Origin: Bradyrhizobium prioriisuperbiae
GTDB taxonomy: Bacteria > Pseudomonadota > Alphaproteobacteria > Rhizobiales > Xanthobacteraceae
Assembly (NCBI RefSeq): GCF_032397745.1
Contig: NZ_CP135921.1
Span: 5,444,501 to 5,508,500 of the forward strand
DNA length: 64,000 nucleotides
Reading direction: 5' to 3'
Shown here: positions 47,237 through 63,089 of the stretch, in pieces
Numbering within the stretch: the stretch's first letter is position 1
Layout of the letters: each line of letters begins with the position of its first letter
Notes under the pieces: generated by a model
The model's input: the letters and a program-made list of their open reading frames with translations, nothing else
The model's database searches: none
Told to the model about the DNA's origin: nothing
Translations under genes and position numbers: made by a program

Positions 47237-47806
47237 TCAGATGGTGGCGTTTGTGGTGACGGCATTGGCGCGGTCACGGGCGCGCTGCGAATACCATTTG
47301 GTGAATTGCACGGCGGCATTGCGGGCAGAGAAGGCGATGATCACACCGACCCAGAGCGGGGCAGAGGGCCACCACACCGACAGCATGTCCGCCACCAGCA
47401 TCAGCGCGAAGGCGCCGACCCAGACCCAGGTCAGGACGTAATTGGTGCGGATGAATTCCGGCATGACCCGCACCTCGGGGGTGACATGTTCGCGGGCATA
47501 TTGCAGCGTGAACGGAAAGCGCAGCACGATCGAAACCAGCACGACACTGAGCAGGGCGATATCGATCGCAATGCGGATGGTCGCGTGGCTCCAGGCGTCG
47601 TTGGTCAGGAGCACGATCGCGCCGAGGCTGCTGAAGATCACGACCGAGGCGATGTTCAGGATCTTGGCCGAGCGGCCCTTGATCCGTTCGTGGACGATCA
47701 AAGCCAATGCGACGGTCGCGCCGGCGAACAGGCCGATCGTGATCGGGAACAGCCAGTTCAGGGCGCCGAGCACGAGGAAGGGCAACAGGATGAGGAAGAA
47801 TGACAT
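47237..47806 (-). CDS. YciB-like multipass membrane protein with TetR-type double operator
   Basis: 189 residues with about five or six membrane segments. The pattern IVLLTNDAWSHATIR, then FPFTLQYAREHVTPE and FIRTNYVLTWVWVGAFALMLVADM resembles the protein at 59292 and, more loosely, the YciB/IspZ septation-protein family (LLLxxDxxFxxxKP). Start: ATG 47806 with GGAGG five bases upstream. The promoter (47854-47882) and two 19-bp operators are nearly the same as those at 61472-61544, so it is probably repressed by the TetR protein encoded at 61564. Confidence 0.75.
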   Translation of the reverse strand: MSFFLILLPFLVLGALNWLFPITIGLFAGATVALALIVHERIKGRSAKILNIASVVIFSSLGAIVLLTNDAWSHATIRIAIDIALLSVVLVSIVLRFPFTLQYAREHVTPEVRVMPEFIRTNYVLTWVWVGAFALMLVADMLSVWWPSAPLWVGVIIAFSARNAAVQFTKWYSQRARDRANAVTTNATI

Positions 47807-47836: not shown

Positions 47837-47906
47837 ATCTTTACGATGTAAAGATTTTAAGCCGGAAGGTCTGCGGGGTCAAGCAAAATCTTTACAGTGT
47901 AAAAAT
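47837..47906 (-). promoter_or_regulatory. Promoter with double 19-bp operator before the membrane protein gene
   Basis: Operator A at 47837-47855, ATCTTTACGATGTAAAGAT, perfect 8-bp arms. Operator B at 47888-47906, ATCTTTACAGTGTAAAAAT. Minus-strand promoter TTGACC (47882-47877), 17-bp spacer, TAAAAT (47859-47854), placing operator A over the -10 box and start site. The 29 bp at 47878-47906 differ from 61516-61544 at only one base. Confidence 0.82.
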
Positions 47907-47977
47907 TGACGGGAGGGAGTGGCGATTTTTGCTTATAATATTGAAAATACTTATATTTTTATGGTGGCTGTCCAGTG

Positions 47978-48595
47978 TCAGTGCGCCGATCGCACACCCA
48001 GTCCCACCATGAAGCGCTCGCGGATTTGCACGGGATCGCGGGGTGTGGTGCCGGCGGCGGGTTTGTCGTCGATGCGCGCGGCGATCAGGCGTGGCGTGGT
48101 CGCAGACAGCGCGTCGTGAATCAGCCGGTCGAAGTCGTCCTCATCGGCGGCCCACGCGCTCTGCGCAAGTCCGCAGCCTTGGGCGACGGCGACGATGTCG
48201 GTGGTTGTTGCTGCTGGTGTCGGCTGCGCGCCGGTGATCTGGTAGATGCCATTGTCCATCACGATCAGGGTCAGGTTTGCCGGCGCCAGCATCGCGATGG
48301 TCGAGAGGCATCCCAGCTGCATCAGCAGCGAGCCGTCGCCTTCCAGCGCGATTACCCGTCGTGTCGGCTGCGCCAGCGCAACGCCCAGCGCGATGGGAAA
48401 GGCGAGGCCCATGCTGCCGAGCATATAAAAGTTTTGGGGACGGTGGCCCGCCGCCCACAGGTCGAAATTGGTGTTGCCGATGCCGCCGACCACGGCTTCG
48501 TCGTGCTTGAGTTTGGCGACCAGCCGCGTGGTGAGGTCGAAGCGGTTCATCACTTTGGTGTTGGCCGAGCGGGTCGGGGAGGTTGCATTCGTCAT
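47978..48595 (-). CDS. ThDP-dependent decarboxylase, beta subunit (sulfopyruvate/phosphonopyruvate decarboxylase-like)
   Basis: 205 residues. The ThDP-binding motif is complete: EGDGSLLMQLGCLSTIAML...VMDNGIYQITG (GDG...N). The N-terminal FYMLGSMGLAFPIALGVALAQP is typical of the C-terminal (PP) domain of ComDE-type enzymes. It pairs with the PYR subunit encoded 14 bp upstream. The split into subunits of about 180 and 205 residues matches sulfopyruvate decarboxylase, but phosphonopyruvate decarboxylase relatives cannot be excluded. Confidence 0.85.
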   Translation of the reverse strand: MTNATSPTRSANTKVMNRFDLTTRLVAKLKHDEAVVGGIGNTNFDLWAAGHRPQNFYMLGSMGLAFPIALGVALAQPTRRVIALEGDGSLLMQLGCLSTIAMLAPANLTLIVMDNGIYQITGAQPTPAATTTDIVAVAQGCGLAQSAWAADEDDFDRLIHDALSATTPRLIAARIDDKPAAGTTPRDPVQIRERFMVGLGVRSAH

Positions 48596-48609
48596 GGTCC
48601 TGATCCCCT

Positions 48610-49152
48610 TTACGCCGCGAACACTTTGCCGCCGGTCAGCAGCGGCGACAGGATCAGCGCCACCGGCGCCTGCGTTGCGACCGCCTGCCGGATCGAGCGA
48701 TCGACAATGAATTCGAACTCATCCAGCCGCGTCGCGGTGTGATGCTCGATCGCAAGCGACTCCAGTACCGGCCGCATGGTGCGGCACACCAGAGTCTGGC
48801 CATAGTTGAACTCGCCGAGCGTGCCGCGTTCGGACACCACCATGATCAACGGGATCTGGTAGGGCAGCACCAGCGACGCCAGCGTGTTGGCGAGGGTGGC
48901 AAAGCCGCTGGTCTGCATCAGCACGGCGCCGCGCAGGCCGCCCATCCACGCACCGGAGACGATGCCGACGGCTTCTTCCTCGCGTGCCGCGGGGAAGGCG
49001 GTGAAGAACGGATCGGCGTGAATGCTCGTGATCAGCGTGGTCAGCACGCGGTCGGGGACATAGGTCACGAGCTTGATGTCGTGCTGCTTGAGCGTGTGGT
49101 GGAGGATCTCGTGCCATACTTGGGGCTTGGGCCTGTTCTCGGCAGCGGCCAT
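48610..49152 (-). CDS. ThDP-dependent decarboxylase, alpha subunit (sulfopyruvate/phosphonopyruvate decarboxylase-like)
   Basis: 180 residues, the PYR-domain partner. The cofactor-activating Glu is present in AAREEEAVGIVSGAWMGG (about residue 58), followed by VLMQTSGFATLANTLASLVLPYQIPLIMVVSERG. Together with the next gene it should form a 2-oxoacid decarboxylase. It is divergent from a D-2-hydroxyacid dehydrogenase gene across 278 bp. The shared intergenic region carries a GntR-type palindrome, suggesting joint control of a 2-oxoacid pathway. Confidence 0.85.
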   Translation of the reverse strand: MAAAENRPKPQVWHEILHHTLKQHDIKLVTYVPDRVLTTLITSIHADPFFTAFPAAREEEAVGIVSGAWMGGLRGAVLMQTSGFATLANTLASLVLPYQIPLIMVVSERGTLGEFNYGQTLVCRTMRPVLESLAIEHHTATRLDEFEFIVDRSIRQAVATQAPVALILSPLLTGGKVFAA

Positions 49153-49237
49153 CGATCACTCCCTTATCCATCCAGCATTGCAGTGCGTCATCGCTGACGG
49201 CCATGCCGGTTACGTCAAGACTTGATGCGACAAGACC

Positions 49238-49251
49238 GATTGTCAACAATC
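49238..49251. promoter_or_regulatory. GntR-type palindrome in the divergent control region
   Basis: GATTGTCAACAATC, 6-bp perfect arms around CA. ATTGTNNACAAT is a common GntR-family operator form. It stands in the gap (49153-49430) between the decarboxylase alpha gene and the hydroxyacid dehydrogenase. No GntR gene lies in the window. Confidence 0.5.
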
Positions 49252-49430
49252 TTGTTAATCAGGAGGGCTGTGACGGCGGAATCAGGGAAGGGCGGTTCGC
49301 AAGGCGAGATGTCGGATACCTGTTAGAACTGTTTCAGGCGTGGACGCCACAGCCTTCGGCGCAGTACCACATCCTTCTCACCCCTTCCGGCCCGGCTCTG
49401 CAGATTCCTGAACTTGAGAGTACAATCAAG

Positions 49431-50501
49431 ATGACCAACGCGACCAAGCGTGTGTTCTATGTGAAGTACCTGGCCCATCCGATCTATACGGAGATCCTGC
49501 AGGCGCGGCCGGATGTGCGGCTCGATCGGCTGGAGAATGACAGCGCCGAGGAGATCGCAGCCCCGATCCTTGCTGCCGCCCACGCCTATCAGATTGGTGC
49601 TGCGCGCGACGAGCTCGCGCCGGTGTTCCACGCGGGGCATGATCTGCTGCGGCGCACGCCCAATCTCCTGATCGTCTCGAGCAATGGCGCGGGTTTCGAC
49701 CCGGTGGACGTCGAAGCCTGCACCAGTGCGGGTGTGCTGGTGGTCAATCAGTCCGGCGGCAACGCCCGCTCGGTGGCGGAGCACGCGCTGGCCATGATGC
49801 TGGGCTTGTCGAAACGCATCGGCGAAGCCGACCGGGCGCTGCGGCGCGAGCCCGCTGTGGAGCGCAATGCGCTGATGGGGCAGGAAATCCAGGGCAAGAC
49901 TCTCGGCATTGTCGGTCTCGGTCATGTCGGCCGCCGGGTTGCCGAGCTGTGTTACGGGCTCTTTGGCATGCGCGTGCTTGCTTATGATCCTTTTTTGTCG
50001 GCCGAAGAAGTCACGCGCCGGGGCGGCGAGAAGGTCGCGCTGGACGAGTTGCTGCGCCGCGCCGATTTCGTCTCCATCAGCTGTCCGCTCAACAGCGAGA
50101 CCCGGGGCTTGATCGGTGCAAAGCAATTCGCGCTGATGCCGCCGCATGCCTACTTCGTCACCACCGCGCGCGGGTTCATCCATGACGAGGACGCACTCAC
50201 TGATGCGTTGCGCGGCAAGCGGATCGCCGGCGCCGGTCTCGATGTCTGGGCGAAGGAGCCGCCGCCGCATCACCATCCACTGCTGCAGTTCGACAATGTG
50301 ATCGTGTCTCCGCACACCGCCGGCGTCACCAGGGAGGCGAGGACCAATATGGGCCGGATCGCCGCAGAACAGTTGCTCGGCGCGCTGGACGGCCAGCGGC
50401 CGCCGCGGCTGATCAATCCAGAAGTGTGGCCGCACTACGCGCGGCGGTTCGAGCGCGCATTCGGAGTCGCGCCGCAGGCGCCGGCTGATCGGGTGGGCTG
50501 A
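49431..50501 (+). CDS. D-isomer-specific 2-hydroxyacid dehydrogenase (second of two)
   Basis: 356 residues from ATG 49431; the upstream extension of the frame is not family-like. NAD-binding GIVGLGHVGRRVAELCYGLFGMRVLAYDPF near residue 165 has a canonical GxGxxG. Catalytic residues: Arg in TTARGFIHDEDAL (about 245), Glu in AGLDVWAKEPPP (about 274) and His in VSPHTAGVT (about 293). It is probably co-regulated with the divergent two-subunit decarboxylase, supplying or removing its 2-oxoacid. Confidence 0.9.
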   Translation: MTNATKRVFYVKYLAHPIYTEILQARPDVRLDRLENDSAEEIAAPILAAAHAYQIGAARDELAPVFHAGHDLLRRTPNLLIVSSNGAGFDPVDVEACTSAGVLVVNQSGGNARSVAEHALAMMLGLSKRIGEADRALRREPAVERNALMGQEIQGKTLGIVGLGHVGRRVAELCYGLFGMRVLAYDPFLSAEEVTRRGGEKVALDELLRRADFVSISCPLNSETRGLIGAKQFALMPPHAYFVTTARGFIHDEDALTDALRGKRIAGAGLDVWAKEPPPHHHPLLQFDNVIVSPHTAGVTREARTNMGRIAAEQLLGALDGQRPPRLINPEVWPHYARRFERAFGVAPQAPADRVG

Positions 50502-50526
50502 TGAGCCATCTATCGGGGAGTGTCAG

Positions 50527-51333
50527 ATGATGTTTCATTCCAGCCTGCATCCAATGCGACGACAGGCAGTTGCACTTGTTGTCGCCGCTCTGGCGGTATC
50601 GTCAGGCGCGGCCCTGGCGGCCGATGTCGATCCCGCCAAGATCCTCGCGCCCGGCGGGCGACTGCGGGCGGCGCTTTATCCGGGCACGCCAACCTCGATC
50701 CTGACCGACAATCCGTCGGAGCCGCGTGGCGTCGGATACGAGATCGGCCGGGAATTGGCGCGCCGGCTTCAGGTGGCTTATGAGCCGGTGGTGTTTGCCA
50801 AGAACGCGGAAGTGCTTGAGGCCGTCAAGACGGGCGCCGTCGATGTCGCCTTCACCAATGCGACGGCCGCGCGCGCCAGGGACATGGACTTTGCGCCGCC
50901 TTACCTGATCATCGAGCTCGGATACCTGCTGCCGCCGGGATCGGCCATAAAAGATCTCGGCGAACTCGATGCGGTCGGACGGCGCATCGGCGTCACCACC
51001 GGCAGCACCTCGGACGCGACGTTGTCCCGCGACCTGAAGCATGCGGAGATCGTGCGCGCGATGACCTTGAAAGATGGCGTCACATTGCTGGCGTCCCGCC
51101 AGGTCGATGCGTTCGCCACCAACAAGGCTTCGTTGTTCGAGATGGCGGATCAACTGCCAGGCGCGCGCGTGCTCGACGGGCACTGGGGCCTGGAGCGCCA
51201 CGCCATCGCCATTCCCAAAGGGCGCGATGCTGCACTCGTTTTCCTTGGCAACTTCACCGTCGAGATTCAGACGAGCGGCCTGGTGAAGGCGGCAATCGCG
51301 CGGGCGGGGCTGAAGGGTGTGCTGGAGCCTTAG
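50527..51333 (+). CDS. Family-3 extracellular solute-binding protein
   Basis: 268 residues. Signal peptide (about residues 1-32, ending AALAAD). Two-lobed SBP_bac_3 pattern: GYEIGRELARRLQVAYEPVVF, EAVKTGAVDVAFTNATAARARDMDFAPPYL, and RRIGVTTGSTSDATLSR in the second lobe. No permease gene lies next to it, so it works with a distant transporter or as a sensor. Located 25 bp after the hydroxyacid dehydrogenase, it may bind the substrate of that pathway. Confidence 0.87.
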   Translation: MMFHSSLHPMRRQAVALVVAALAVSSGAALAADVDPAKILAPGGRLRAALYPGTPTSILTDNPSEPRGVGYEIGRELARRLQVAYEPVVFAKNAEVLEAVKTGAVDVAFTNATAARARDMDFAPPYLIIELGYLLPPGSAIKDLGELDAVGRRIGVTTGSTSDATLSRDLKHAEIVRAMTLKDGVTLLASRQVDAFATNKASLFEMADQLPGARVLDGHWGLERHAIAIPKGRDAALVFLGNFTVEIQTSGLVKAAIARAGLKGVLEP

Positions 51334-51370
51334 TGGCTATTGACGCGGCGATAACCGGCCGGTTCGTCCC

Positions 51371-51663
51371 TCAAAGGTCGGAATGCTCACGCTCGCGCGC
51401 CGAATGCTGGATGGAGAGAACAGCAATCTCCTCAGCAACGTCATTCACGATGTAATAAATAATAGAGGGATAGCGGCGAGCTACGATCTTGCGCACGCCG
51501 TCTATTTTTTGCTGTCGCCCACATGCGGAAAGAGCACAAGATTCTGAAGTGACTCAAGGATGGCAGTGCGCACGCGAAGCGCAGCTTGCGGGCTGCGCTC
51601 ACGGATAAAGATGGCGATTTCATTCAAATCTTGTGTCGCGCGCGGCGTGAACCGGAGCTTCAT
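51371..51663 (-). pseudogene. ParE/RelE-type toxin, frameshifted
   Basis: Starts at ATG 51663 with a normal ParE N-terminus (LRFTPRATQDLNEIAIFIRERSPQAALRVR...LVLFPHVG) and then meets a stop after DSKK. Another frame carries the rest of the family: DGVRKIVARRYPSIIYYIVND and the ending EIAVLSIQHSARERE, to TGA at 51371. One base appears to be missing around 51520-51530. The total span of 293 bp is not a multiple of three. The toxin is therefore probably inactive. Confidence 0.8.
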
Positions 51664-51893
51664 TTATCAAAAGCGTGAAACGCCGCTTCGACCTCGGAAT
51701 CGGTCGCGAATTGACGGCGCTTGGCCTGGGCGAGACCTTCGAGCACAGCCGGCAGATGCGCCGCATCGATGTCCTCGGGCTCGCCTTCGTTGCCAGTCAA
51801 GGTGAGCATGGCAAGCGCAATCTGGTCCTGGCTGTCCGGCGGTAGCCGCCGCACGGCTTCAAGGGCCTTTTCGAGCAGTTTTGTCATGACCAT
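51660..51893 (-). CDS. Antitoxin of a ParE-type module
   Basis: 77 residues, acidic and helical: LLEKALEAVRRLPPDSQDQIALAML followed by DIDAAHLPAVLEGLAQAKRRQFATDSEVEAAFHAF, a pattern often found directly before ParE/RelE toxins in Rhizobiales. Its TGA overlaps the toxin ATG by 4 bp, as usual in such modules. The antitoxin frame is intact although the toxin is broken, which is the safe direction of decay. Confidence 0.78.
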   Translation of the reverse strand: MVMTKLLEKALEAVRRLPPDSQDQIALAMLTLTGNEGEPEDIDAAHLPAVLEGLAQAKRRQFATDSEVEAAFHAFDK

Positions 51894-51961
51894 AAGATAT
51901 GATTTGCGGCTTCCGAATGGAAGGGGGATTCGGGAGTGTCTTCCAGGAACGTGTGATCCCG

Positions 51962-53215
51962 CTACGACAAAATACCCTCGAACAGCGGTCGTACGAACAG
52001 GTCCACATCGGTCTGATCCCCGGCAAGCCGCGGCACCCAGCGGTCAAGCTCGGACGCGGCATTGATCATTCCCGCCACCTGTTGCGCGGCGATCGCCGGG
52101 TCGAGTGTGGGGATGTCGCCCTCGCGGATCGCTTGCACCACGAACATTCCCAGCTGTTCGATCAGGCGATCGAGGCCGCGCATGGAGTCCTTGCGGGTTT
52201 CTTCCGGCAACGCATTCCATGCCGAGGTTCGCAGCAGTGGTCCCTGGTCGGAGAGCTGGATGCGAACCTGCGCCCGCGCGGCCGCCGTCAGCCGCTCCCA
52301 GCCGGTGTTATGACGCTCACGCGCCAGCGCCTGGGTGCGTCGGATGACGGCGAACGTCCGCTCGAAACAGGCGGCGACCAGTTCTTCCTTGCTGTCATAG
52401 TGATGGTAGAACGAACCCTTGGTGAGGTTGAGGCGCGCCGCGATGCGATCCACCGACACGCCACGATAGCCCTGGTCGTTGAGCAGGATGGTGGCGGCGC
52501 GCAGGAAGGCCTCGGGCGTGGTCGCATCACCCGCGGCCGGTTGTGGCCAGCCGATGTCCGGCTGCGCCGGCTCGCGCCATTGTTTCCGCCGGCTTGCAAG
52601 GCCGTTGATCACGATGTCGCTCATGCATGCGGCGGCATGGACATAGTCTTCGGGTTCGTAGCGGGAGATCCAGCGCCGCATCCAGTGAAGCAGCGACAGC
52701 AGCAGGTGCGCGCGTGCGTTGCGCTGCTGGGGCTGCAGCGTCTCCTTCGGCAGCAGCCGCCTGATGCTGCGAAACATCTCGGTGTAGGCCGCGAAGACAT
52801 GGTCGACCTCCGGTGCCTTCAGCGCCCGGATGTCGTTGAAATTGACCAACTGGTCGCATCGGCCGCTGGCGATCCCGGCCAAAAGCTCGGCGTGATCGTG
52901 GATCAGACGGCGGATTCGCGCTTCCGGATTGCCCGCGCTCAGCGCCGCCACCGCCAGCGCCTGCCCGGTATCGATCGACTTCAGCAGACAGGCCGCCGCC
53001 AGATCGTCCTTGCGGCGATAATAATAGGTCACGCTGTTGGTGAGCAGGCCGACACTGCCGGCGATGTCGGCGAAGGTCGCGCCCTTGAGGCCGCGCCGGT
53101 TGAACTCGCGGGCGGCGGCGTCGAGGATCGCGTCCTGCTTGGCGACGAACTTGCGGGTCCGGGCCAGTTCGCCCTTGTCGCGCGGTTTCGTTGTCGGCAA
53201 TCCGTTCGGCTTCAT
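51962..53215 (-). CDS. Double-headed TetR-family regulator (two TetR units in one chain)
   Basis: 417 residues, twice the normal TetR length. Unit 1 (about residues 20-210) has the helix-turn-helix ILDAAAREFNRRGLKGATFADIAGSVGLLTNSVTYYYRRKDDLAAACL. Unit 2 (about 235-417) has a second, complete one: FLRAATILLNDQGYRGVSVDRIAARLNLTKGSFYHHYDSKEELVAACF. Each is followed by its own ligand-type helical part. It lies 9 bp after the last gene of the dipeptide-type ABC operon, on the same strand, so it is probably co-transcribed and likely regulates that operon. Confidence 0.87.
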   Translation of the reverse strand: MKPNGLPTTKPRDKGELARTRKFVAKQDAILDAAAREFNRRGLKGATFADIAGSVGLLTNSVTYYYRRKDDLAAACLLKSIDTGQALAVAALSAGNPEARIRRLIHDHAELLAGIASGRCDQLVNFNDIRALKAPEVDHVFAAYTEMFRSIRRLLPKETLQPQQRNARAHLLLSLLHWMRRWISRYEPEDYVHAAACMSDIVINGLASRRKQWREPAQPDIGWPQPAAGDATTPEAFLRAATILLNDQGYRGVSVDRIAARLNLTKGSFYHHYDSKEELVAACFERTFAVIRRTQALARERHNTGWERLTAAARAQVRIQLSDQGPLLRTSAWNALPEETRKDSMRGLDRLIEQLGMFVVQAIREGDIPTLDPAIAAQQVAGMINAASELDRWVPRLAGDQTDVDLFVRPLFEGILS

Positions 53216-53224
53216 GTCACTGCA

Positions 53225-54220
53225 CTAATGCGATTTCGCCGCGTCATGCAAATGGCAGGCGACGGCCTGGCCACCGCCCAGCTCCCGCAACTCGGGGCTC
53301 TCGGTGCGGCAGCGGTCGAAGACATGCGGGCAGCGGGTGTGGAAGCGGCAGCCGGGCGGCGGATTGGTTGCGCTCGGCACTTCGCCGGTGACGATGGCCC
53401 GCTGCCGGGTCGCCTCGACCTCCGGATCGGCCACCGGCACCGCTGCAAGAAGTGCCTGGGTGTAGGGATGTTGTGGCGACTTGTAGAGCGCATCGCGCGA
53501 GGCGATCTCCACGATGCGCCCCAGATACATCACCGCGATGCGGTGGCTGACATGGCGGACCACGGCAAGGTCGTGGGCAATGAACAGATAGGTGAGGCCG
53601 AGCCGCTGCTGCAGCTCGACGAACACATTCACCACCTGGGCCTGGATCGAGACGTCGAGCGCCGACACCGGCTCGTCACAGATGATCAGGCTGGGTTCGA
53701 GTGCCAGCGCCCGCGCGATGCCGATGCGCTGGCGCTGGCCGCCGGAGAATTCATGCGGATAGCGGTTGGCCATGTCGGGCAAAAGCCCCACGGTGCGCAT
53801 CAGTTCGGCAATCCGTTCCTCATAGGCCTCGCGATCACCCGCGACCCCATGCACCACCAGCGGCTCGCCGATGATGTCGCGCACCGTCATGCGCGGATTG
53901 AGCGACCCATAAGGGTCCTGATACACCATCTGGATGCGTTGCCGCAGCGGCAGCATCTGCTTGCGGCTGTAGGACGTAATGTCCTGCCCCTCGAGCTCGA
54001 TGCGGCCCGCGGTCAGTGCCTGCATCTTCAAAATCGCAAGGCCGGTGGTCGACTTGCCGCAGCCGCTCTCGCCGACCAGGCCGAGGGTTTCGCCACGCGC
54101 CAGCGAGAACGAAACGCCATCGACGGCGCGCACCGCGCCAACTTGCTTGCGTCGGAGGATGCCGCCTTCGATCGGGAAATGCACTTTGAGGTCGCTGACG
54201 CGCAGCAGGGGTTGCGACAT
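53225..54220 (-). CDS. Oligopeptide/dipeptide-type ABC ATPase (DppF-like)
   Basis: 331 residues. Walker A GESGCGKST (about residue 50), Q-loop MVYQDPYGSLNPRMTV, signature FSGGQRQRIGIARALAL, Walker B LIICDEPVSALDVS, and the C-terminal oligopeptide-transporter extension with the PPGCRFHTRCPHVFDRC iron-sulfur-like cysteine motif. It energises the DppB/DppC permease with the other ATPase. It is 3 bp downstream of the DppD-like gene. Confidence 0.93.
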   Translation of the reverse strand: MSQPLLRVSDLKVHFPIEGGILRRKQVGAVRAVDGVSFSLARGETLGLVGESGCGKSTTGLAILKMQALTAGRIELEGQDITSYSRKQMLPLRQRIQMVYQDPYGSLNPRMTVRDIIGEPLVVHGVAGDREAYEERIAELMRTVGLLPDMANRYPHEFSGGQRQRIGIARALALEPSLIICDEPVSALDVSIQAQVVNVFVELQQRLGLTYLFIAHDLAVVRHVSHRIAVMYLGRIVEIASRDALYKSPQHPYTQALLAAVPVADPEVEATRQRAIVTGEVPSATNPPPGCRFHTRCPHVFDRCRTESPELRELGGGQAVACHLHDAAKSH

Positions 54221-54223
54221 CGC

Positions 54224-55243
54224 TCAAGCCTCCAGGAAACAGGCGGCGCTGTGGCGGGGACCGACCTCGCGCAGCGGCGGCGCCGCCTCCCTGCAGGCCT
54301 CGACGGCCTGGCGGCAACGCGGCGCGAAGGCGCAGCCGGGCGGCAGGTCAGCGAGATTCGGGGGCTGGCCTTCGATCGGCACCAGGCGTGCGTGCGTATC
54401 GCCGTCCAGCCGCGGCACCGAGGCCATCAGCCCGCGGGTGTAGGGATGCCGGGGACGCGCATACAGCTCCCGCGCCGGCGCGGTTTCGACAATGCGGCCG
54501 GCATACATCACCGCCACGCGGTCGGCATAACGCGCCACCACACCGAGATCGTGGGTGATCAGGATCAGCGCCGAGCGTGCGCGTGCGGCGAGATCCTTCA
54601 GCAGGTCGAGGATCTGCGCCTGCACGGTGACGTCGAGCGCGGTGGTCGGCTCGTCGGCGATGATCAGTTGCGGCTGGCACGCCAGCGCCATGGCGATCAT
54701 GGCGCGCTGGCGCATGCCGCCGGAAAACTGGTGCGGATAGGCATTAACGCGCGATGCCGGGTCCGACATCCGCACCCGCCCCAGCAGGTCACGCGCTGCA
54801 AGCAGGGCCTTCGACCACGGCAAACGGCCGTGACGGTTGATCGGCTCACCGACCTGCAGGCCGACGGTCAACGCCGGATTGAGCGAACTCATCGGCTCCT
54901 GGAAGATCATGGCGATCTTGTTGCCGCGAATGTCGCGGATCTCCGAGTCGGAGAGTTTGAGCAGATCCTGCCCGTCGAACAGGATTTCGCCGCCGTCGAT
55001 CCGGCCCGGTGGGCTCGGGATCAACCGCAGGATCGACAGCGCCGTCATGCTCTTGCCGGATCCGGATTCGCCGACGATCGCCAATGTCTCGCCGGCATTG
55101 ACGTCGAAGGAGACGTGGTCGACCGCGGTGATGGTTCTGCGGCCGGCGCCAAACCGGGTGACGAGGTCGCGCACGCGCAACAGTGGCTGCTGCTGCGTGC
55201 TGCGGTCTGCGGTGACGCCTGGGAGGCTCACCGGGGCGTTCAA
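54224..55243 (-). CDS. Oligopeptide/dipeptide-type ABC ATPase (DppD-like)
   Basis: 339 residues from TTG 55243, chosen because its TTGA overlaps the stop of the preceding receptor and AGAGGA lies seven bases upstream; the longer open frame beyond is not family-like. Walker [11 protein letters not shown]-loop [16 protein letters not shown], signature [17 protein letters not shown], Walker [15 protein letters not shown], and the C-terminal [11 protein letters not shown] cysteine motif. Partner of the DppF-like ATPase. Confidence 0.92.
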
Positions 55244-56967
55244 AAACCCATCCTCTTTTTCATCTCCTGGTCGATCCAGATCCGCGCATGGATCGGGCCG
55301 GGCCGCTCGGAACCGGCGCGCAGCTCGCCGCCATAATTTTTCACCCACGGCCACCACGCCGTGTAGTTGTAGGCAACCGGCAGGAAGATGTAGGGCGCCT
55401 TGTCGATGATCGAGCGGGTCATCTCCTTGAGCATCATCTGGCGCTTGCTCTCGTCCCGCTCCTGGAAGACCTCGTTCATCTTGCGGTCGATATCGGGGTC
55501 GGAGAACTGCGATGGATTCCAGGTCTGCTTGGTGACAAAGCTTTTGCGCAGGGTGGTGGTCGGGTTGGTGTGGCCGTTGAGCATGAAGTAGCCGGCCGTG
55601 TTGGTCTTGGTGGTCATCGCCGACAGGAACGCGCCATACTCCATCGGCTGGATTTCGAGCTTGACGCCGACCTTTTCCAGATACGCTGCGACCAGCGGCA
55701 GCAGGTCCATGTGATCCGGCGAGCAGGAACACACCTGCACCTTGAAGGAGAAGCCGTTCGGATAACCGGCTTCCGCGAGCAGCGCCTTCGCCTTCTGCGG
55801 GTTATACGTGTAGAGCTCCTTCACGCTGTCAGGCATCTGCTCCAGCGGCTCGAAATAGCCGATATAGTCGGGATGTTGCGGGTAGGCGAACAGCTGGCCC
55901 TCGCCATTGTAGAACGAGGACAGGATCTCCTGCTTGTTGACCGCCATGTTCAGCGCGCGGCGCACCCGCAGGTCGTCGAACGGCTTGGCGTCGGTGCGCA
56001 TCGCAAGGAACGTGCCGCCGGTGGCGAGCCAGCGCGACCACTGCAGTTTCGGCGCGCTCTTCTTCAATTCGTCCACCGCGCTCCAGCGGATCGATTCCAG
56101 CAGGTCGAGCTTGCCGGTGCGCAATGCAGCGAGGAATGTCGCTTCGTCCTTGATGGTGCGATAGACGATCTTGTCGACAAACGGCAGCTTGTACGGCTTG
56201 CCGTCGATCTGCTCCTTGTCCCAGTAATTGTCGTTGCGGGAGAAGGTGAGAGCGTTGGCCTGGACATAGTCGGTCAGCCGGAACGGTCCGGTGCCGTTGG
56301 CATTTTTCCAGTTGCCGGCGCCGGCATCCGCGACTTCCTTCGGCACGATGCCGGAGTAGTAGCCCCAGCCAAAGCGGTAATCCCATTCCGAGGAATAGGT
56401 CTTGAAGGTGAAGACCACGGTGTGCTTGTCGATGGCCTCGGCCTTCTCGACATGGTCGAAATAGGTCGGGACCTTCTTCGGACTGTTGTTGAGCCGCTCA
56501 TAGCTCTGCACCACGTCGTCGGCAACGAGTTCGCGCGCGGCCATCACCCCGGGCTTGTCCGGAAACATCACGCCCTGGCGCAGCTTGATCTCCACGCGCA
56601 GTGGATTTTCCTTCCACTGCCAGCTCTCAGCCAGTTCGCCGCGGATCGCGTCCGTCGGCAGCCAGGCATCCGGCACGAACGAGTAGGGACCGCCGCGACG
56701 TTTCGACTTGCTGAGGTCGGCTGCGAACAGTTGCTCGTACATCAGCCCGGTGTCCTGCTGGAATTTCCAGGCCCAGTCGGCCGGATCCCAGGTCAAGGGC
56801 GAGACCGTGACATAGACATTGCCGATGTTGAGGGTGCCGCCATATTGCGGCACCTCCTCGCCGGCCGAGACAAGCCCCGCCGAGGTCGCGGTCAGTGCAC
56901 CAGCCAGTGACAGCGCGCGTAGCGCTTTGGCAACGTATCCTCCTCGTCCGGCCGCGGGTTTGTACAT
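55240..56967 (-). CDS. Family-5 extracellular solute-binding protein (dipeptide type)
   Basis: 575 residues from ATG 56967, which directly precedes the signal peptide (ending GLVSAGEE) and has GGGAGGA upstream. SBP_bac_5 features: [77 protein letters not shown] and the C-terminal [28 protein letters not shown]. It delivers ligand to the DppB/C permease encoded upstream in the same operon. Substrate may be peptides, sugars or opines. Confidence 0.92.
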
Positions 56968-57001
56968 CGCATGTCCTCCCCTTGTGATCGTCTTGTTTGC
57001 C

Positions 57002-57898
57002 TCAGCGCGAGTTGCGCATGCGCGGATCGAGCAGGTCGCGCAGCGCATCGCCGAATACGTTGGTGGCATAGACCACGACGGTCAGGCACAGCCCTGGCGC
57101 GAGCGCGAGCCATGGGCCCTGGAACATGTAGGTGCGGGCGCTGCCGGAGAGCATGCCGCCCCAGGTTGGCGCCGGCGGCGGCACGCCAAGGCCAAGGAAC
57201 GACAAGCCGGATTCGGCAAGGATCACCGCACCGACGCGGGTGGTGAACAGCACGATGATCGGCGGCATGATGTTGGGCAGGATGTGGCGCCACAGGATGC
57301 GGCCGGTGGAGGCGCCGATCGACTGCGCCGCATGCACATACATGTTTTCCCGTGCCGACAGCACGGCGCTGCGGATGATGCGGGAGCCGGCGATGCCGAG
57401 CACCAGGCTGAGGATGCCGATGATCTGGATCATGCCGGGGCCGAGCACCGACACCACCGTGATCAGGATCACCAGTTCGGGGAATGACATGTAGGCGTCG
57501 ACGAAACGTTGCGCGATCATGTCGAAGCGGCCGCCGATATAGGCGGTGATCGTGCCGATGGTGACCGACAGTACGGTGGCCAGCGCCGCGGCGGAGAGGC
57601 CGATGATCACCGACAGCCGTGCGCCGTAGAGGCAGCGCGACAGCACGTCGCGTCCCAGATTGTCGGTGCCGAACCAATGTCGCAGCGATGGCGGCTTCAG
57701 CCGCTCGATAGGGCTGATCTCGTTGAAGCCGTAGGGCGCGAGCAGGTGGGCGAATACGCCGCAAAAGAGAAAGATGATGAACACGAGTCCGGCCGCCGCG
57801 CCGACCGGTTGCTCGCGGACCAGCCGCGTTACGAACTGCCGCAGGGCTCCCGGCGGGGTGGACCGTTTGATTGGGGTGGTCTCGGTCAGCGTGCTCAT
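57002..57898 (-). CDS. Dipeptide-type ABC permease (DppC-like)
   Basis: 298 residues from ATG 57898, which overlaps the DppB-like stop (ATGA). N-terminal cytoplasmic stretch, then six membrane segments. Characteristic HWFGTDNLGRDVLSRCLYGARLSVIIG and the EAA-loop ENMYVHAAQSIGASTGRILWRHILPN. The C-terminus DALRDLLDPRM is the family ending. Confidence 0.93.
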   Translation of the reverse strand: MSTLTETTPIKRSTPPGALRQFVTRLVREQPVGAAAGLVFIIFLFCGVFAHLLAPYGFNEISPIERLKPPSLRHWFGTDNLGRDVLSRCLYGARLSVIIGLSAAALATVLSVTIGTITAYIGGRFDMIAQRFVDAYMSFPELVILITVVSVLGPGMIQIIGILSLVLGIAGSRIIRSAVLSARENMYVHAAQSIGASTGRILWRHILPNIMPPIIVLFTTRVGAVILAESGLSFLGLGVPPPAPTWGGMLSGSARTYMFQGPWLALAPGLCLTVVVYATNVFGDALRDLLDPRMRNSR

Positions 57899-58848
57899 CG
57901 ATGCCTCACGCGCGGATCGAGCAGGCCGTAGCTCAGGTCCACGATCAGGTTGATCAGCATCACGGCCACGCCCACCACCAAGAACACCCCGGTGATCACC
58001 GGGTAATCGCGCTGGTTGACGGCCTCCAGCAGCAACGACCCCATGCCGGGAATGACGAAGATCTGCTCGATGATCACGGCGCCGCCGATCAGCAGCGGCG
58101 CTTGCAGGCCAACCAGGGTGACCACCGGGATCAGCGCATTGCGCAGGGCGTGCCGCCTCACCACCAGTTGCTCGGGCAGGCCCTTGGCCCAGGCGGTGCG
58201 GATATAGTCCTGCCGCAGCACCTCCAGCATCATGGTGCGGGTCAGCCGCATGGTCACGGCGGACAGCGCGGCGCCCAGCACGATGGCCGGCACGATCATC
58301 TGTTTCAGGTTCTGCAACGGATCGGTGCCGAATGGCACATAGTTGACCTCCGGCGACCAGCCCCACCAGATCGAGGGAAACACCACCACCATGGTGCCGA
58401 GCCAGAAGCTCGGGACTGCGAGCAGCAGGATGGAGAACGAGCGGGCGAGGATATCGCCGGCGGTGTCCTGCCGCACGGCGGAATATATCCCGATCGGCAG
58501 CGCGATCGACAGCGCCACCAGCAGCGCCAGCAGTCCCAGCTCGAATGTGACCGGCAGCCGCTGCAGCAGATCGTCGAGTACCGGCGTCGACCGCCACAGC
58601 GAGTTGCCGAAATCGCCGCGCAGGATGCCGAAGATCCAAACCCCGAACTGCTGCAGCATCGGCCGGTCGAAGCCGAGCACATGCTCCAGCTGTGCACGGC
58701 TCAGTTTCTCCGCGCCGATGTCGTTCTGGCTCAGCATCATGTCGATCACGTCGCCCGGGATCAGACGGACGGTGACGAACACGATCACACTGGCGAACAG
58801 CAGCGTCGGGATCAGGGCCAGCAGGCGCCGGACGATGTAGGCGCGCAT
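57895..58848 (-). CDS. Dipeptide-type ABC permease (DppB-like)
   Basis: 317 residues, first gene of a six-gene operon (DppB, DppC, receptor, DppD, DppF, TetR). N-terminus MRAYIVRRLLALIPTLLFASVIVFVTVRLIPGD is diagnostic of DppB/OppB. EAA-loop LRQDYIRTAWAKGLPEQLVVRRHALRNALIPVVTLVG. The C-terminus LSYGLLDPRVR completes the family pattern. Six membrane segments. Confidence 0.93.
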   Translation of the reverse strand: MRAYIVRRLLALIPTLLFASVIVFVTVRLIPGDVIDMMLSQNDIGAEKLSRAQLEHVLGFDRPMLQQFGVWIFGILRGDFGNSLWRSTPVLDDLLQRLPVTFELGLLALLVALSIALPIGIYSAVRQDTAGDILARSFSILLLAVPSFWLGTMVVVFPSIWWGWSPEVNYVPFGTDPLQNLKQMIVPAIVLGAALSAVTMRLTRTMMLEVLRQDYIRTAWAKGLPEQLVVRRHALRNALIPVVTLVGLQAPLLIGGAVIIEQIFVIPGMGSLLLEAVNQRDYPVITGVFLVVGVAVMLINLIVDLSYGLLDPRVRHR

Positions 58849-59227
58849 GGGTTAGCGCCCGGCGTCAGGGCGCGGCCAGCAACAGGGATGGGGATCGCAA
58901 GAACTGGGATCTAACGTGGGGGCGGTGGGGCGAGGGCGCAATCGAAGACATCGCGCGGGACGGACAGCCCTGAGCGTCATGTGCGGTTTCTCCCTGAACG
59001 AGCTGGCGGCTTTTATGCCGTGGTTTTGGCCATACTCGATTTTCTATATTTGTGCCTCGCAGCAATCATGAAGCACGCGCGAGCTTAGCAGTTCGAAAGG
59101 TACTGGCAAGTGTGACCTTGTCGCAGTTTCGGTTCCGGCCGGCGTGGCCCTGGATATGACAGCAGCCATACCCATTTCCTGAATTCAGAAGTGTGCGGCT
59201 TGTGGCGCAGCCGTTCCGCACAGCGGA
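58849..59227. other. Upstream region of the dipeptide-type operon
   Basis: About 380 bp without a convincing gene. It must hold the promoter for the minus-strand operon. No palindrome that would fit the double-headed TetR could be singled out by eye. Confidence 0.35.
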
Positions 59228-59250
59228 AAGGCCGGATCATGTCCGGCCTT
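59228..59250 (-). terminator. Hairpin after the YciB-like gene
   Basis: AAGGCCGGA / TCCGGCCTT, 9-bp perfect stem with a 5-nt loop, 41 bp downstream of the minus-strand stop at 59292. Only a short T-run follows on that strand. Confidence 0.5.
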
Positions 59251-59291
59251 CAAGGAGGTTGAATACTGCGCGTGTGCCTGTGCGGGCAGGC

Positions 59292-59873
59292 TTACAGCAG
59301 CGCTGCCGCCTTGGTCGGGGCGGTCACTGCCTGCCGGTTGAGCCTGCGGCTGATGGCGATGCGGAACACCGCATATTGCAGGGCGAACGCCGCGATCTTG
59401 GCGCCGACCGCGACCACCGAGATGTAGATGGTGTAGAGCGTCATGTCGCCGGTCATGGCAACCGCGACAACGCCGGCGCCGAGCACGAACATCAATGCCG
59501 CCCAGGCGTAACCGGTGATCACCAGCAAGTCGGGGATGGTGTCGCGGACGATCTGCGGTACATAACGCGCGGTCCATCCGCGCCGCAGCATGACGGCGCC
59601 GATGGCGAAATGCGCAATGCTCGGTTTGATCAAGACGAAACGCGGATCGTTGGTGAGCAGCGTGGCGCCGCCGAGCACCAGCACCAGCGCGAGGCTCGCC
59701 CAGGCCATGGCATCGAGCGTCTGCCCGGTGACGCGGGCATAGATCACGCTGCCGATGGCGCTGGCAATCGCAAAGCCCGCCGCGATCACCACGTCGCCGG
59801 TGAGGGCGTAAACGATCAGGAAGACGATAGTCGAGAGGAAGTCGCCGATCAGCTTGAGGAACACGTCGCGCAT
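59292..59873 (-). CDS. YciB/septation-protein-like multipass membrane protein
   Basis: 193 residues with five or six membrane segments. The YciB/IspZ-like core is visible: LLTNDPRFVLIKPSIAHFAIGAVML, then ARYVPQIVRDTIPDLLVITGYAWAALMFVLG. It resembles the membrane protein at 47237. Start: ATG 59873 after AAGGAAAAC. It follows the carotenoid oxygenase gene on the same strand with a family-A repeat between, and probably shares its promoter. Known YciB acts in cell-envelope assembly; the role here is inferred only. Confidence 0.75.
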   Translation of the reverse strand: MRDVFLKLIGDFLSTIVFLIVYALTGDVVIAAGFAIASAIGSVIYARVTGQTLDAMAWASLALVLVLGGATLLTNDPRFVLIKPSIAHFAIGAVMLRRGWTARYVPQIVRDTIPDLLVITGYAWAALMFVLGAGVVAVAMTGDMTLYTIYISVVAVGAKIAAFALQYAVFRIAISRRLNRQAVTAPTKAAALL

Positions 59874-59894
59874 GTTGTTTTCCTTATCTGTGAT

Positions 59895-60032
59895 CCGTCA
59901 TCCTGAGGTGCGAGCCCTGCGCTGCACTTGCAGCGCGGGGCGAGCCTCGAAGGATGGACGGCCGATGTATCCGAGATAGGGCCGTTCGCCCTTCGAGGGC
60001 CGCACTGTCGTGCGGCCACCTCAGGACGACGG
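59895..60032. repeat. Palindromic repeat family A, copy 5
   Basis: Starts CCGTCATCCTGAGGTGCG and ends CCACCTCAGGACGACGG, with inner CCTCGAAGGATGGACGGCC and GGCCGTTCGCCCTTCGAGGG. It lies between the carotenoid oxygenase and the YciB-like gene and could separate or modulate their expression. Confidence 0.92.
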
Positions 60033-60046
60033 GGAGAGGGCACGCG

Positions 60047-61450
60047 TCAGCTCGCGCCTACCCAGTTGCCATGGAATCCGTCGGGCACGCGATGTCCGAG
60101 CTTCACCAGCGCCACCGGACCGCTCTCGACATCGGTGGCATTGAACACCGCGAGATCGCTGCGGTTCTCCTGCGCCCGCCACACCGCGGCCAACAGCCAG
60201 CCATCGCCTTCCGCGGCATCGCTGCCGCGCTCGACGAACACCGGCTCCGAGATGGTGTCGCCCGCCGGCAGCAGATACTGCGCGCGACGATTGGCCTTGG
60301 CATCGACATGAACGATGCCGGCGAGGCCGGAGGCGGCCGATCCCCCGCGATGGGCGCAGGCGTACCAGCCGTGGCGGTTGATCATGCCGGCATGGCGATC
60401 GTCGATGCGCGGGAATTCGCCGGTGACGTCGTCGAGATAATCCTGGGTGAAGCGATCGGTGCCGCCGGAGAGATCGAAGGTCCAGCGGCACAGCCGGGCC
60501 TGGGACTTTGCCGGATCGGTCGGCCGGCCGTCGGGATGGGTGAACAGCGGCGGCTCGGCGAACTGCATCACGTCGGCGACGATGCGGTTGCCGTCTTCCC
60601 AGGCATTCATGACATGGAAGACGTAACAGCTCTCGCCGCGGAACCAGGCGATGTCGCGGGTGGCGCCGCTGCGCTTCATCACGCCGACATAGGCGCCCTT
60701 GTCCGGCTCCCAGGCATAGGCCGGCCGGCCGCTCATGGCGCGGTCCATGCTGCCGGTCAGCGGCAACACCGGAAACAGCACGTGGTTGGCGGTGACGATG
60801 AAGTCATGCACCATGCTGGCATAGGGTGCGTCGAACCGCTCGAAGCGGGAGACCGTGCCGTCGGCACTGACAGCGCCATAGGACAGTTGCGAGGTGAAGG
60901 GCCCGGCGGCGTTGTAGCCGAAGAAGATCATCTCGCCAGTGACGGGATCGAGCTTCGGGTGCGCGGTGAAGGGGCCGGCAATCGCGTCGCGATAGGTGTT
61001 GTAGCCGCGGGTGGCGAGCGTGCCCGGTTCGATCTCGGTCGGCAGGTGGCCTTCTTCCAGTGCCAGCAGCCGGCCGGCGTGGAAGATGATGTTGGTGTTG
61101 GCGACGCCGCCGTCCTGGGTGGTGCCGGGCGGCACATCGGCGAGCTTGCGGCCGAAACCGCCGAACAGCGTACGTCCTGCGTCGTGCTCCGCCAGCCATT
61201 TCGGGGTGCGGACCCAGCGGTTGCGATAGCTGGCGCGGCCGTTCTCGATATGAAACGCGTGCAGCATGCCGTCGCCGACGAACCAATGCGCACCCGGCAC
61301 GTCGAATTGCGGGTTGGGGCCGTTGCGATAGAGCGTGCCGTTGAGTTCGCGCGGCAGTTCGCCCTCGATCTTGAGGAACGGCGCGTCGGCTTCCATCGGA
61401 ATCGGCGCAAGGTTGTTGCGTGGCCTGCTGACGTCGTCGGAGCGCTGCAT
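60047..61450 (-). CDS. Carotenoid oxygenase (RPE65/CCD family)
   Basis: 467 residues. The four iron-binding histidines are in place: FTAHPKLDP (about residue 165), SMVHDFIVTANHV (about 215), CYVFHVMNAWEDGN (about 281) and the C-terminal PDGFHGNWVG (about 460). The N-terminus GELPRELNGTLYRNGPNPQF is the family signature. These iron dioxygenases cleave double bonds in carotenoids, apocarotenoids or stilbenes such as lignostilbene. Start: ATG 61450 after GGGAGGA. It is divergent from a TetR gene with shared operators. Confidence 0.93.
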   Translation of the reverse strand: MQRSDDVSRPRNNLAPIPMEADAPFLKIEGELPRELNGTLYRNGPNPQFDVPGAHWFVGDGMLHAFHIENGRASYRNRWVRTPKWLAEHDAGRTLFGGFGRKLADVPPGTTQDGGVANTNIIFHAGRLLALEEGHLPTEIEPGTLATRGYNTYRDAIAGPFTAHPKLDPVTGEMIFFGYNAAGPFTSQLSYGAVSADGTVSRFERFDAPYASMVHDFIVTANHVLFPVLPLTGSMDRAMSGRPAYAWEPDKGAYVGVMKRSGATRDIAWFRGESCYVFHVMNAWEDGNRIVADVMQFAEPPLFTHPDGRPTDPAKSQARLCRWTFDLSGGTDRFTQDYLDDVTGEFPRIDDRHAGMINRHGWYACAHRGGSAASGLAGIVHVDAKANRRAQYLLPAGDTISEPVFVERGSDAAEGDGWLLAAVWRAQENRSDLAVFNATDVESGPVALVKLGHRVPDGFHGNWVGAS

Positions 61451-61471
61451 CGGATCCTCCCGGATGAGTTT

Positions 61472-61544
61472 ATCTTTACATCGTCAAGATAAACTAGAGC
61501 GGGATGGGCGGTGACGTCAAGCAAAATCTTGACAGTGTAAAAAT
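61472..61544. promoter_or_regulatory. Divergent promoters with double 19-bp TetR-type operator
   Basis: Operator A 61472-61490, ATCTTTACATCGTCAAGAT. Operator B 61526-61544, ATCTTGACAGTGTAAAAAT. Plus-strand promoter of tetR: TTGACA (61529-61534) inside operator B, 17-bp spacer, GATAAA (61552-61557). Minus-strand promoter of the oxygenase: TTGACG (61520-61515), 18-bp spacer, TAGTTT (61496-61491), next to operator A. Same arrangement as at 47837-47906. Confidence 0.85.
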
Positions 61545-61563: not shown

Positions 61564-62274
61564 ATGTCCAGACAGACAACGATTCAGCCGAAATCTCCGG
61601 CACGGGCCGCCAAATCCCCCGCCACCAAGCCCGCCGCGGGCAAAATCGCGCGCCGGACCAAGGCCTCCGCGGCGCCGTATCATCACGGCGCGCTGCAGGA
61701 GGCGCTGCTGACGGCGGCCGAGCGCATTCTCGAGCGCGATGGCCTGCCGGGCCTGACGCTGCGCGCGGCGGCGCGGGAGGCGGGGGTGTCCCACGCCGCG
61801 CCGACGCATCATTTCGGCGATCTCACGGGGCTGCTGAGCGAACTCGCCGCGGTGGGGTTTCGGCGCTTCCGCGAGGCGCTGCTTGCCGCCGCCGATCGGC
61901 AGACCGCGCCGGGCGCGCGCCTCGACGCCATGGGCAGCGCCTATGTGTCATTCGCCAAGACCTATCCCGGCATGTTCACCCTGATGTTCCGCAGCGAGCG
62001 GCTCGATCCCACGCGGTCGGCGCTGGCGGAGGCGATGGAGGCGGCCGGGGCGGCGCTGGGACAGGCCGTCGGCGCGCAACGGCAGGAGACCATCGTCAAG
62101 CAGGCGCCGACGCTGCAGCAGGCGGCCCGGATGGTGCGGGCCTGGTCGATGGTGCACGGCTTTGCCGTGCTGCTGCTCGACGGGCGTCTCGGGGAGTTCC
62201 TGGCGCATCTGCCGCCCGGCGAGAGCGACGCGACGCTGCTGGAGGCGATACTCAGCCCGGGATCGGAATTTTGA
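61564..62274 (+). CDS. TetR-family regulator (WHG-type C-terminal domain)
   Basis: 236 residues from ATG 61564. A basic Ala/Lys/Pro-rich N-terminal tail of about 38 residues precedes the helix-turn-helix ALLTAAERILERDGLPGLTLRAAAREAGVSHAAPTHHFGDLTGLLSELA. The C-terminal domain with YVSFAKTYPGMFTLMFRSERLDP is the WHG type (TetR_C_33). The predicted transcription start coincides with the ATG, so the mRNA may be leaderless. An ATG 20 codons upstream lies inside the operator and is unlikely. It probably represses itself, the divergent carotenoid oxygenase and the gene at 47237. Confidence 0.9.
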   Translation: MSRQTTIQPKSPARAAKSPATKPAAGKIARRTKASAAPYHHGALQEALLTAAERILERDGLPGLTLRAAAREAGVSHAAPTHHFGDLTGLLSELAAVGFRRFREALLAAADRQTAPGARLDAMGSAYVSFAKTYPGMFTLMFRSERLDPTRSALAEAMEAAGAALGQAVGAQRQETIVKQAPTLQQAARMVRAWSMVHGFAVLLLDGRLGEFLAHLPPGESDATLLEAILSPGSEF

Positions 62275-62303: not shown

Positions 62304-63089
62304 TCACCTGCGCGGCAACGCCAGCTCCGTGGTGCGGCCTTTCTCGCCGGCTGATGTCACCTTGTCCCTGGCGCAGTCGAAGCTACGAGCCATGTCGTCC
62401 GCCGCCTTGCGGGCAACCGCGTTGGCATTGGGATTCGCCTTCACGTCCACATAGGCCACATGGCAGACCGCGCCGGGCGGCAGCCGGGTGACCACCAGCA
62501 TCTGCTTGGTGATGGGACGGCCGTCCTTGTCAGCGCGTTTTCGAGCGAAGTGGGTACCGGTTCGCGTGAAGAAAACGCGCCTTTTATTATCTGGAGCGAA
62601 TTCGAGCGCAAAACCGGTGTCCACTTTTGCGGAATTCGCTCCCGTGTCGCTGTTGTCCGCGATATGCCAGCGCTGGATCATGGCAAACGGCTTGCCGTCG
62701 GAGCCGCTGCGCCATTCGATGGTGTCGGTGGTCGAGTTGAACGGGCCGAAGCTCTGGCTGGCCGCGGGCTCCGCGCCGGCCTGCTTGCGATTGCGGCCGA
62801 CCGAGATGATCTCGCGCAGGTCCTGCTCGATTTTCAGCACCACCAGCCCGGCAGCACCCGGGCAGATGCGCTCGGATCCGTATTCCTCGTCGTCGCCGAC
62901 CTTGACGCTCGACACCTTGCGGCAGGCCTTGTCGGCGGTGGACGTATAGATGCTGGCGATCGGGGAGGCCGGCTCTGCCATCGCCGGCGGCATCGGGTAA
63001 AAAGCCAGATCTGAAAAGAACATGGCTGTCAGCACGGTGACAACAAGGCGTGGCAGGCTGGGGATCGACAGCATGGAGATGGAAGTCAT
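62304..63089 (-). CDS. Secreted protein of unknown function carrying an in-frame repeat insertion
   Basis: 261 residues. Signal peptide (about residues 10-38, ending PPAMAEP). The mature part has cysteines in DKACRKV, ERICPG, AVCHVAY and FDCARD, and resembles invasion-associated locus B-like periplasmic proteins in layout (GSDGKPFAMIQRW, RLPPGAVCHVAYVDVKANPN); this is tentative. Residues about 150-186 are encoded by two adjacent palindromic repeats (62533-62580 and 62593-62642) that keep the frame open, placing a basic, repeat-derived insert in the middle of the protein. Confidence 0.7.
   Translation of the reverse strand: MTSISMLSIPSLPRLVVTVLTAMFFSDLAFYPMPPAMAEPASPIASIYTSTADKACRKVSSVKVGDDEEYGSERICPGAAGLVVLKIEQDLREIISVGRNRKQAGAEPAASQSFGPFNSTTDTIEWRSGSDGKPFAMIQRWHIADNSDTGANSAKVDTGFALEFAPDNKRRVFFTRTGTHFARKRADKDGRPITKQMLVVTRLPPGAVCHVAYVDVKANPNANAVARKAADDMARSFDCARDKVTSAGEKGRTTELALPRR
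62533..62642. repeat. Two palindromic repeats inside a coding region
   Basis: First: GCGCGTTTTC (62533-62542) pairing with GAAAACGCGC (62571-62580), with inner TTCGAGCGAAG / TTCGCG. Second: perfect 11-bp arms GGAGCGAATTC (62593-62603) and GAATTCGCTCC (62632-62642) with inner GCGCAAAA / TTTTGCG. The GTTTTCGAGCGAAGTGG...ACCGGTTCGCGTGAAGAAAAC type is a frequent intergenic repeat in Bradyrhizobium and relatives. Confidence 0.85.

Follow-up and report, generated by a model that had tools for sequence, protein, structure and literature searches.

Within a 64-kb stretch of Bradyrhizobium prioriisuperbiae DNA, hereafter called the window, four genes appear to be tied together by a shared operator. 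These encode a TetR-family regulator (tetR; 61564..62274, plus strand), a carotenoid-oxygenase-type enzyme (CCO; 60047..61450, minus strand), an IspA/YciB-like membrane protein (IspA; 59292..59873, minus strand) and a small multi-helix membrane protein (MP1; 47237..47806, minus strand). The candidate operator is a 19-bp palindrome with the consensus ATCTTKACnnnGTMAAGAT, of which the window holds four copies, two upstream of MP1 and two between CCO and tetR, i.e. at the places given in a preliminary description of this DNA.

Paired operators at two promoter regions

Each pair consists of a proximal site A with no mismatches to the consensus and a distal site B with one mismatch, in which one arm is degenerate. 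Between tetR and CCO the sites are located at 61472..61490 (A) and 61526..61544 (B), and upstream of MP1 at 47837..47855 (A) and 47888..47906 (B), as found by a pattern scan together with a footprint of 80 loci (the footprint takes in locus L023 with its MP1 pair, the tetR region of L023 having one site). The starts of the paired sites are 54 and 51 bp apart, respectively, and the 29-mers at 47878-47906 and 61516-61544 differ at a single base, both as earlier described.

Shuffled controls of the window gave a mean of 0.18 matches at up to three mismatches, with a maximum of two. A scan of the whole genome (9,083,454 bases), which had been proposed as a check, returned only these four sites at up to one mismatch, all of them at the two promoter regions; together with the shuffles, this rules out a chance origin. 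Another seven sites had two mismatches, and the total at up to three was 93, as compared to 28 for the reversed pattern. No partner within about 90 bp (at up to four mismatches) was found for any of these seven sites, six of which fall within open reading frames (ORFs) of at least 60 aa, and a broad genomic regulon was ruled out on these grounds. Since only four matches exist at up to one mismatch and the two-mismatch sites have no close partners, the sites stand out from the background, and here the regulon is predicted to comprise two promoter regions. Nine lone one-mismatch sites in other genomes (loci L183-L190 and L016), unpaired and overlapping ORFs of at least 60 aa, were likewise not counted as regulon members. 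A search against Rfam gave no matches.

A promoter-like element was identified from the sequence under each pair. That of MP1 (47854..47882, minus strand) has a -35 box TTGACC (47877-47882), a 17-bp spacer and a -10 box TAAAAT (47854-47859) overlapping site A by 2 bp; in the footprint, CTTGAC and TA are kept in 73 loci. The CCO promoter (61491..61520, minus strand) has a -35 box TTGACG (61515-61520), an 18-bp spacer and a weaker -10 box, TAGTTT (61491-61496), which abuts site A, and its CTTGAC is kept in 80 loci. The -35 box of tetR itself, TTGACA (61529-61534), lies inside site B. Apart from the weaker CCO -10, the coordinates thus bear out the earlier statement that each operator pair covers a promoter, with site A over or beside the -10. 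Conservation in the footprint amounts to 98% for the operator arms, 72-73% for the spacer between the sites and 80% for the flanks, and the -35 CTTGAC directly after site B is also conserved.

This unequal layout recurs in relatives. Taking sites at up to two mismatches, we found 196 operator pairs, with a spacing of 51-56 bp in 195 and of 42 bp in the remaining one. Of the 188 pairs for which a target was recognized, 172 have a proximal site with both arms matching, and in 182 the distal site shows one mismatch only, located in its outer arm. The weaker sites of distant TetR homologs are spaced 20-21, 33 and 41 bp apart. All these spacings are close to whole turns of B-DNA, which favors an arrangement in which both dimers sit on the same side of the helix. 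In some loci of the genus g27 (L172, L191 and L192), a further short IspA-like gene lies between CCO and MP1 and is preceded by an operator pair of its own (L172:7770-8333, with a product of about 118 aa in that locus).

The regulator scores above the Pfam cut-offs for TetR_N (PF00440; 27.9 bits, cut-off 24) and TetR_C_33 (52.2 bits, cut-off 26.8), and its helix-turn-helix (HTH) region is near-invariant across 17 aligned rows. With site A at the -10 and site B carrying the tetR -35, repression with autoregulation would be the natural reading, and the palindromes overlap both the regulator's own promoter and those of its targets, as judged by sequence only. TetR is likely an autorepressor with a small local regulon. 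That it instead activates one or both loci is very unlikely: site B does lie upstream of the -35, where activators can act, but it is site A, the closer match to the consensus, that overlaps or adjoins the -10/start region, and most characterized TetR-family proteins repress. The autorepressor layout resembles those of TetR/TetA and QacR, with a divergent regulator, palindromic operators over both promoters, a small regulon and a conserved HTH. What is unusual is the fixed unequal twin operators, about five turns apart and repeated at a second target (in some g27 loci a third), and the choice of targets, i.e. YciB/VC0807-like membrane proteins and CCO rather than an efflux pump.

Conservation of the cluster and co-occurrence with TetR

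In a TetR-based survey, from which the best 80 of 239 loci were kept, the order tetR, CCO, MP1, IspA was found in 72 of the 80 Bradyrhizobium-type loci, with operator pairs before both CCO/tetR and MP1. The oxygenase-YciB-TetR cluster with its operator thus does recur in relatives, as had been asked. Exceptions without an MP1 match were L064, L073, L080 and L092; L023 and L071 had no CCO, and L020 had neither MP1 nor IspA in its stretch, although a pair of MP1-type operators lies at the edge of that stretch. The same Bradyrhizobium-type cluster occurs in L050, a record titled 'Frankia sp. RB7' that is probably mislabelled.

The second operator pair had been called unlinked to the tetR locus. 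This is true for the window, in which IspA and the MP1 operators lie about 11.4 kb apart, with genes for an ABC transporter and dehydrogenases among those in between, but it does not describe the family, and because MP1 sits between CCO and IspA in those 72 loci, its separation in the window is probably secondary. The distance from CCO to the MP1 operators is about 3.9 kb in L182, and that from CCO to the MP1-type operators about 8.3 kb in L020, where MP1 itself lies beyond the fetched stretch; a blastn comparison found no match between these 8.3 kb of L020 and the window at 48-59 kb. Both in the window and in L182 the operator pair stayed with MP1.

CCO is the less constant member. In fifteen fetched loci (L160-L165, L167, L168, L170, L171, L173-L175, L177 and L178), tetR and MP1 flank the double operator and the cluster contains no close CCO; IspA was also seen in 12 of them. 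On a tree of 42 TetR proteins, CCO linkage changes six times, at least five of these changes being forced by well supported branches. Judging by the CCO-less loci and these repeated changes, CCO is the more mobile part of the system and TetR-operator-MP1 the more stable one.

Co-occurrence was assessed in 198 genomes of the window's family. This sample and another of 199 genomes from its order are draws from larger groups, and a species may recur between the loci (L) and the genomes (G). The operator at up to one mismatch was found in 54 of the 198 family genomes, as compared to four for the reversed pattern. All 44 family genomes with at least two operators encode this TetR (E ≤ 1e-60), as do six of the 154 others (Fisher p 7e-38). 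In four of these six (G090, G189, G023 and G076) pairs 54, 54, 53 and 54 bp apart do precede tetR, one or both sites being too degenerate for the scan; in G163 a contig end cuts the locus, and G001, which belongs to the same genus as the window, encodes a TetR lacking the initial portion of the HTH and carries neither operator nor CCO nor MP1. MP1 (E ≤ 1e-50) was found in 38 of the 50 TetR genomes and in two of the 148 others. A CCO of at least 60% identity lies beside tetR in 29 of the 50, on one contig in 28 and with a contig end between the genes in G002, and 20 of the 50 have no such CCO (one of them being cut at a contig end and one having only the TetR remnant).

A different owner of the sites, e.g. 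a CRP/FNR-type regulator such as FixK, was considered, since the core TTGACnnnGTCAA resembles an FNR-type box with its TTGA...TCAA halves. These halves are, however, one base too close (TTGA-N5-TCAA rather than N6), the motif at up to one mismatch is confined to two promoter regions of this genome, its presence follows that of the TetR gene in all 44 genomes that have at least two operators, and in G136 a TetR of 41% identity has a one-mismatch copy about 30 bp ahead of it. We therefore regard such a regulator as most improbable. In g24, operator-like sites (one to five mismatches) are found at +0, +33 and +53 or +54 in the promoter of TetR homologs of 41-45% identity. The earlier proposal of one TetR over both loci is strongly supported by the synteny, by the co-occurrence of operator and TetR, and by the operator pairs recurring before tetR/CCO and MP1, and because of this comparative evidence tetR, CCO, MP1 and IspA very likely constitute one small regulon.

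The oxygenase and the membrane proteins

CCO is the only RPE65-domain protein found in its genome (PF03055, 453.8 bits) and retains the four iron-ligand histidines of the carotenoid-oxygenase superfamily, with His164, His215 and His279 present in 91 of 91 close orthologs and His460 in 89. Its best NCBIfam and PDB matches are lignostilbene dioxygenases (419 and 324 bits, respectively), and it shares fold family and iron ligands with the lignostilbene-alpha,beta-dioxygenases LSD4, LsdA and NOV1. These likenesses would suit a stilbenoid or lignin-phenolic module, in which CCO is a lignostilbene dioxygenase and TetR senses a phenolic. The NCBIfam score is nevertheless below the family cut-off of 800 bits, and the substrate pocket differs. 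According to the part of the LSD4 study considered here (PMC8191317), Phe59, Tyr101 and Lys134 bind the 4-hydroxyphenyl ring of the substrate, with Tyr-101 and Lys-134 binding its 4-hydroxyl; CCO keeps the Phe59 counterpart, but has Phe99 for Tyr101 and Glu132 for Lys134. This Phe is found in 91 of 91 close orthologs and the Glu in 89. In MapADO, of the same enzyme group, the putatively corresponding residue pair is described as key (PMC12308385). Because the phenol-binding residues are replaced, CCO should not be classed among the lignostilbene dioxygenases, and a phenolic module is accordingly very doubtful. The model for 8'-apo-carotenoid 13,14-cleaving dioxygenase (NF052295) was not reached either (309 bits, cut-off 675).

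As for a carotenoid made by the cell itself, the best candidate for the phytoene desaturase CrtI in this genome scored 117.4 bits against the TIGR02734 cut-off of 238.1. CrtI was below cut-off in 26 of the 28 tested genomes with a TetR-linked CCO, this one included (G112 was left out; G090 and G189 are the two with CrtI). It was present in 11 of the 12 genomes whose CCO is not linked to this TetR. An endogenous carotenoid was rejected as the CCO substrate on these grounds and is, in this host, unlikely.

The IspA product exceeds the Pfam gathering score for the YciB/IspA/IspZ septation proteins (PF04279; 59.8 bits, gathering score 28.7), but it falls below the NCBIfam septation-protein cut-offs, and of the three PF04279 proteins in the genome the strongest YciB match (201 bits) is at C1:2470954. 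A large intergenic palindromic repeat (59895-60032) separates IspA from CCO, the stretch 59874-60046 folding at -99.3 kcal/mol (z -8.7), and this repeat may weaken read-through from CCO into IspA. Similar paired repeat ends are seen at four other places in the window, namely 14553-14674, 21564-21700, 28119-28234 and 33100-33236.

MP1, found in a single copy in the genome, has a predicted multi-helix structure (mean predicted local distance difference test score, pLDDT, 81.9; predicted template modeling score, pTM, 0.72). The VC0807 model was matched at E ≤ 0.01 by 15 of 18 MP1 rows. Relatives are numerous, making up 3698 of the 8000 candidates that were scored, and the four of 199 order genomes matched by an MP1 profile (E ≤ 1e-10) all belong to the family of the window. 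The two membrane proteins had both been described as YciB-like. This holds for IspA; for MP1 the likeness is weak, with an alignment between the two that spans just 67 aa and a profile comparison of the MP1 and IspA groups that is not significant (probability 2.2%).

Proposed role of the regulon and neighboring genes

Taken together, we consider it quite probable that a TetR autorepressor controls an envelope module of small membrane proteins, with CCO as an accessory member whose substrate would be an alkene that is either exogenous or not a carotenoid. In such a scheme, TetR would occupy, in both promoter regions, two palindromes separated by about five helical turns, and would thereby shut three transcription units, namely tetR, CCO (perhaps with IspA behind it) and MP1. 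Since site A covers or adjoins the -10/start and site B immediately precedes the -35, two dimers would flank RNA polymerase on either side. The repressor would be released by a ligand, probably some hydrophobic compound that enters or disturbs the membrane, and the induced MP1 and IspA would protect or adjust the membrane. CCO would contribute by oxidative cleavage of an alkene, probably not the cell's own carotenoid. The part of PMC9487459 consulted reports that YciB, together with DcrB, maintains membrane fluidity in Escherichia coli. An envelope response, as earlier suggested, is thus plausible, its basis being limited to the YciB-like genes. In searches of the open-licence PMC library, no title or abstract start among the papers listed pointed to this regulon. 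If correct, the scheme would assign a function that can be tested to two small and poorly understood membrane proteins, and likewise to a carotenoid oxygenase retained in bacteria most of which have no phytoene desaturase over cut-off. Ligand screening and regulon mapping should be straightforward with a single well defined operator, and with its fixed layout of two unequal sites the system would lend itself to clean studies of cooperative TetR binding in a natural setting.

Several observations weigh against this envelope scheme. The regulated genes share no biochemistry, and their common role is consequently something we infer. MP1 has no Pfam match and scores 23.5 bits for the VC0807 family (cut-off 65), and a search of its predicted fold against solved structures gave zero matches at E ≤ 0.001. 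IspA, lying behind the large palindrome, may be poorly co-transcribed with CCO. MP1 is present without an operator of its own in L094 and has none or only one before it in L166, and MP1 went unmatched at E ≤ 1e-50 in 12 of the 50 TetR genomes, contig ends being the cause in at least some. G002, a member of the same genus as the window, has its genes arranged as CCO, IspA, MP1, and no operator at up to four mismatches was found in the stretch upstream of MP1 and IspA, which counts against a simple history. The link to CCO may also be wider than the close ortholog shows, since six genomes with a CCO-less TetR (G027, G066, G167, G187, G196 and G046) have a distant CCO (39-43% identity), in three cases with its own TetR near the cluster. 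Such second, divergent TetR-CCO pairs were seen in L160 (9280-11205), L161 and L164 (30-33% and about 40% identity); they carry no copy of this operator at up to two mismatches and suggest that the pairing of a TetR with a CCO recurs.

These second pairs would also suit the alternative that TetR senses an apocarotenoid, or another CCO substrate or product, the membrane proteins being secondary in a carotenoid-linked response. So would the CCO beside tetR in 29 of the 50 TetR genomes and the ABA4-like gene (PF14108) adjoining the tetR homolog in L204 and L205, two of the g24 loci with distant TetR homologs and three operator-like promoter sites (L203-L205); plant ABA4 acts in carotenoid metabolism. 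An exogenous, plant-derived apocarotenoid would moreover be a possible ligand. Against this, TetR, operators and MP1 persist in the 15 loci with no close CCO, the TetR tree calls for no fewer than five changes in CCO linkage, and CrtI has the inverse distribution described above. Apocarotenoid sensing, as put forward in the preliminary description, gained no positive support from the 20 TetR genomes and 15 loci without a close CCO or from a host with no CrtI over cut-off, and we regard this alternative as unlikely. A similarly tentative idea, to which we give a small share of belief, is that non-carotenogenic, plant-associated Bradyrhizobium relatives use the regulon to sense and cleave a foreign polyene lipid, e.g. 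a root apocarotenoid, which TetR would detect and the CCO with its reshaped Phe/Glu pocket would destroy, the YciB/VC0807-type proteins meanwhile buffering the membrane; in most carotenoid-making relatives, CCO would be outside the control of this regulator.

Of the other genes in the window, that of a SET-domain protein (63291-63950, plus strand; PF00856, 90.2 bits) and the one at 62304-63089 (minus strand) adjoin tetR in many of the loci surveyed from the family. The minus-strand gene at 51962-53215 encodes a 417-aa protein in which TetR_N is matched in two stretches, apparently a tandem TetR regulator. Lastly, two adjacent ORFs at 47978-49152 (minus strand) resemble a split thiamine-diphosphate enzyme, with TPP_enzyme_C in the first and a sub-cut-off match to TPP_enzyme_N in the second (23 bits, cut-off 26.8).

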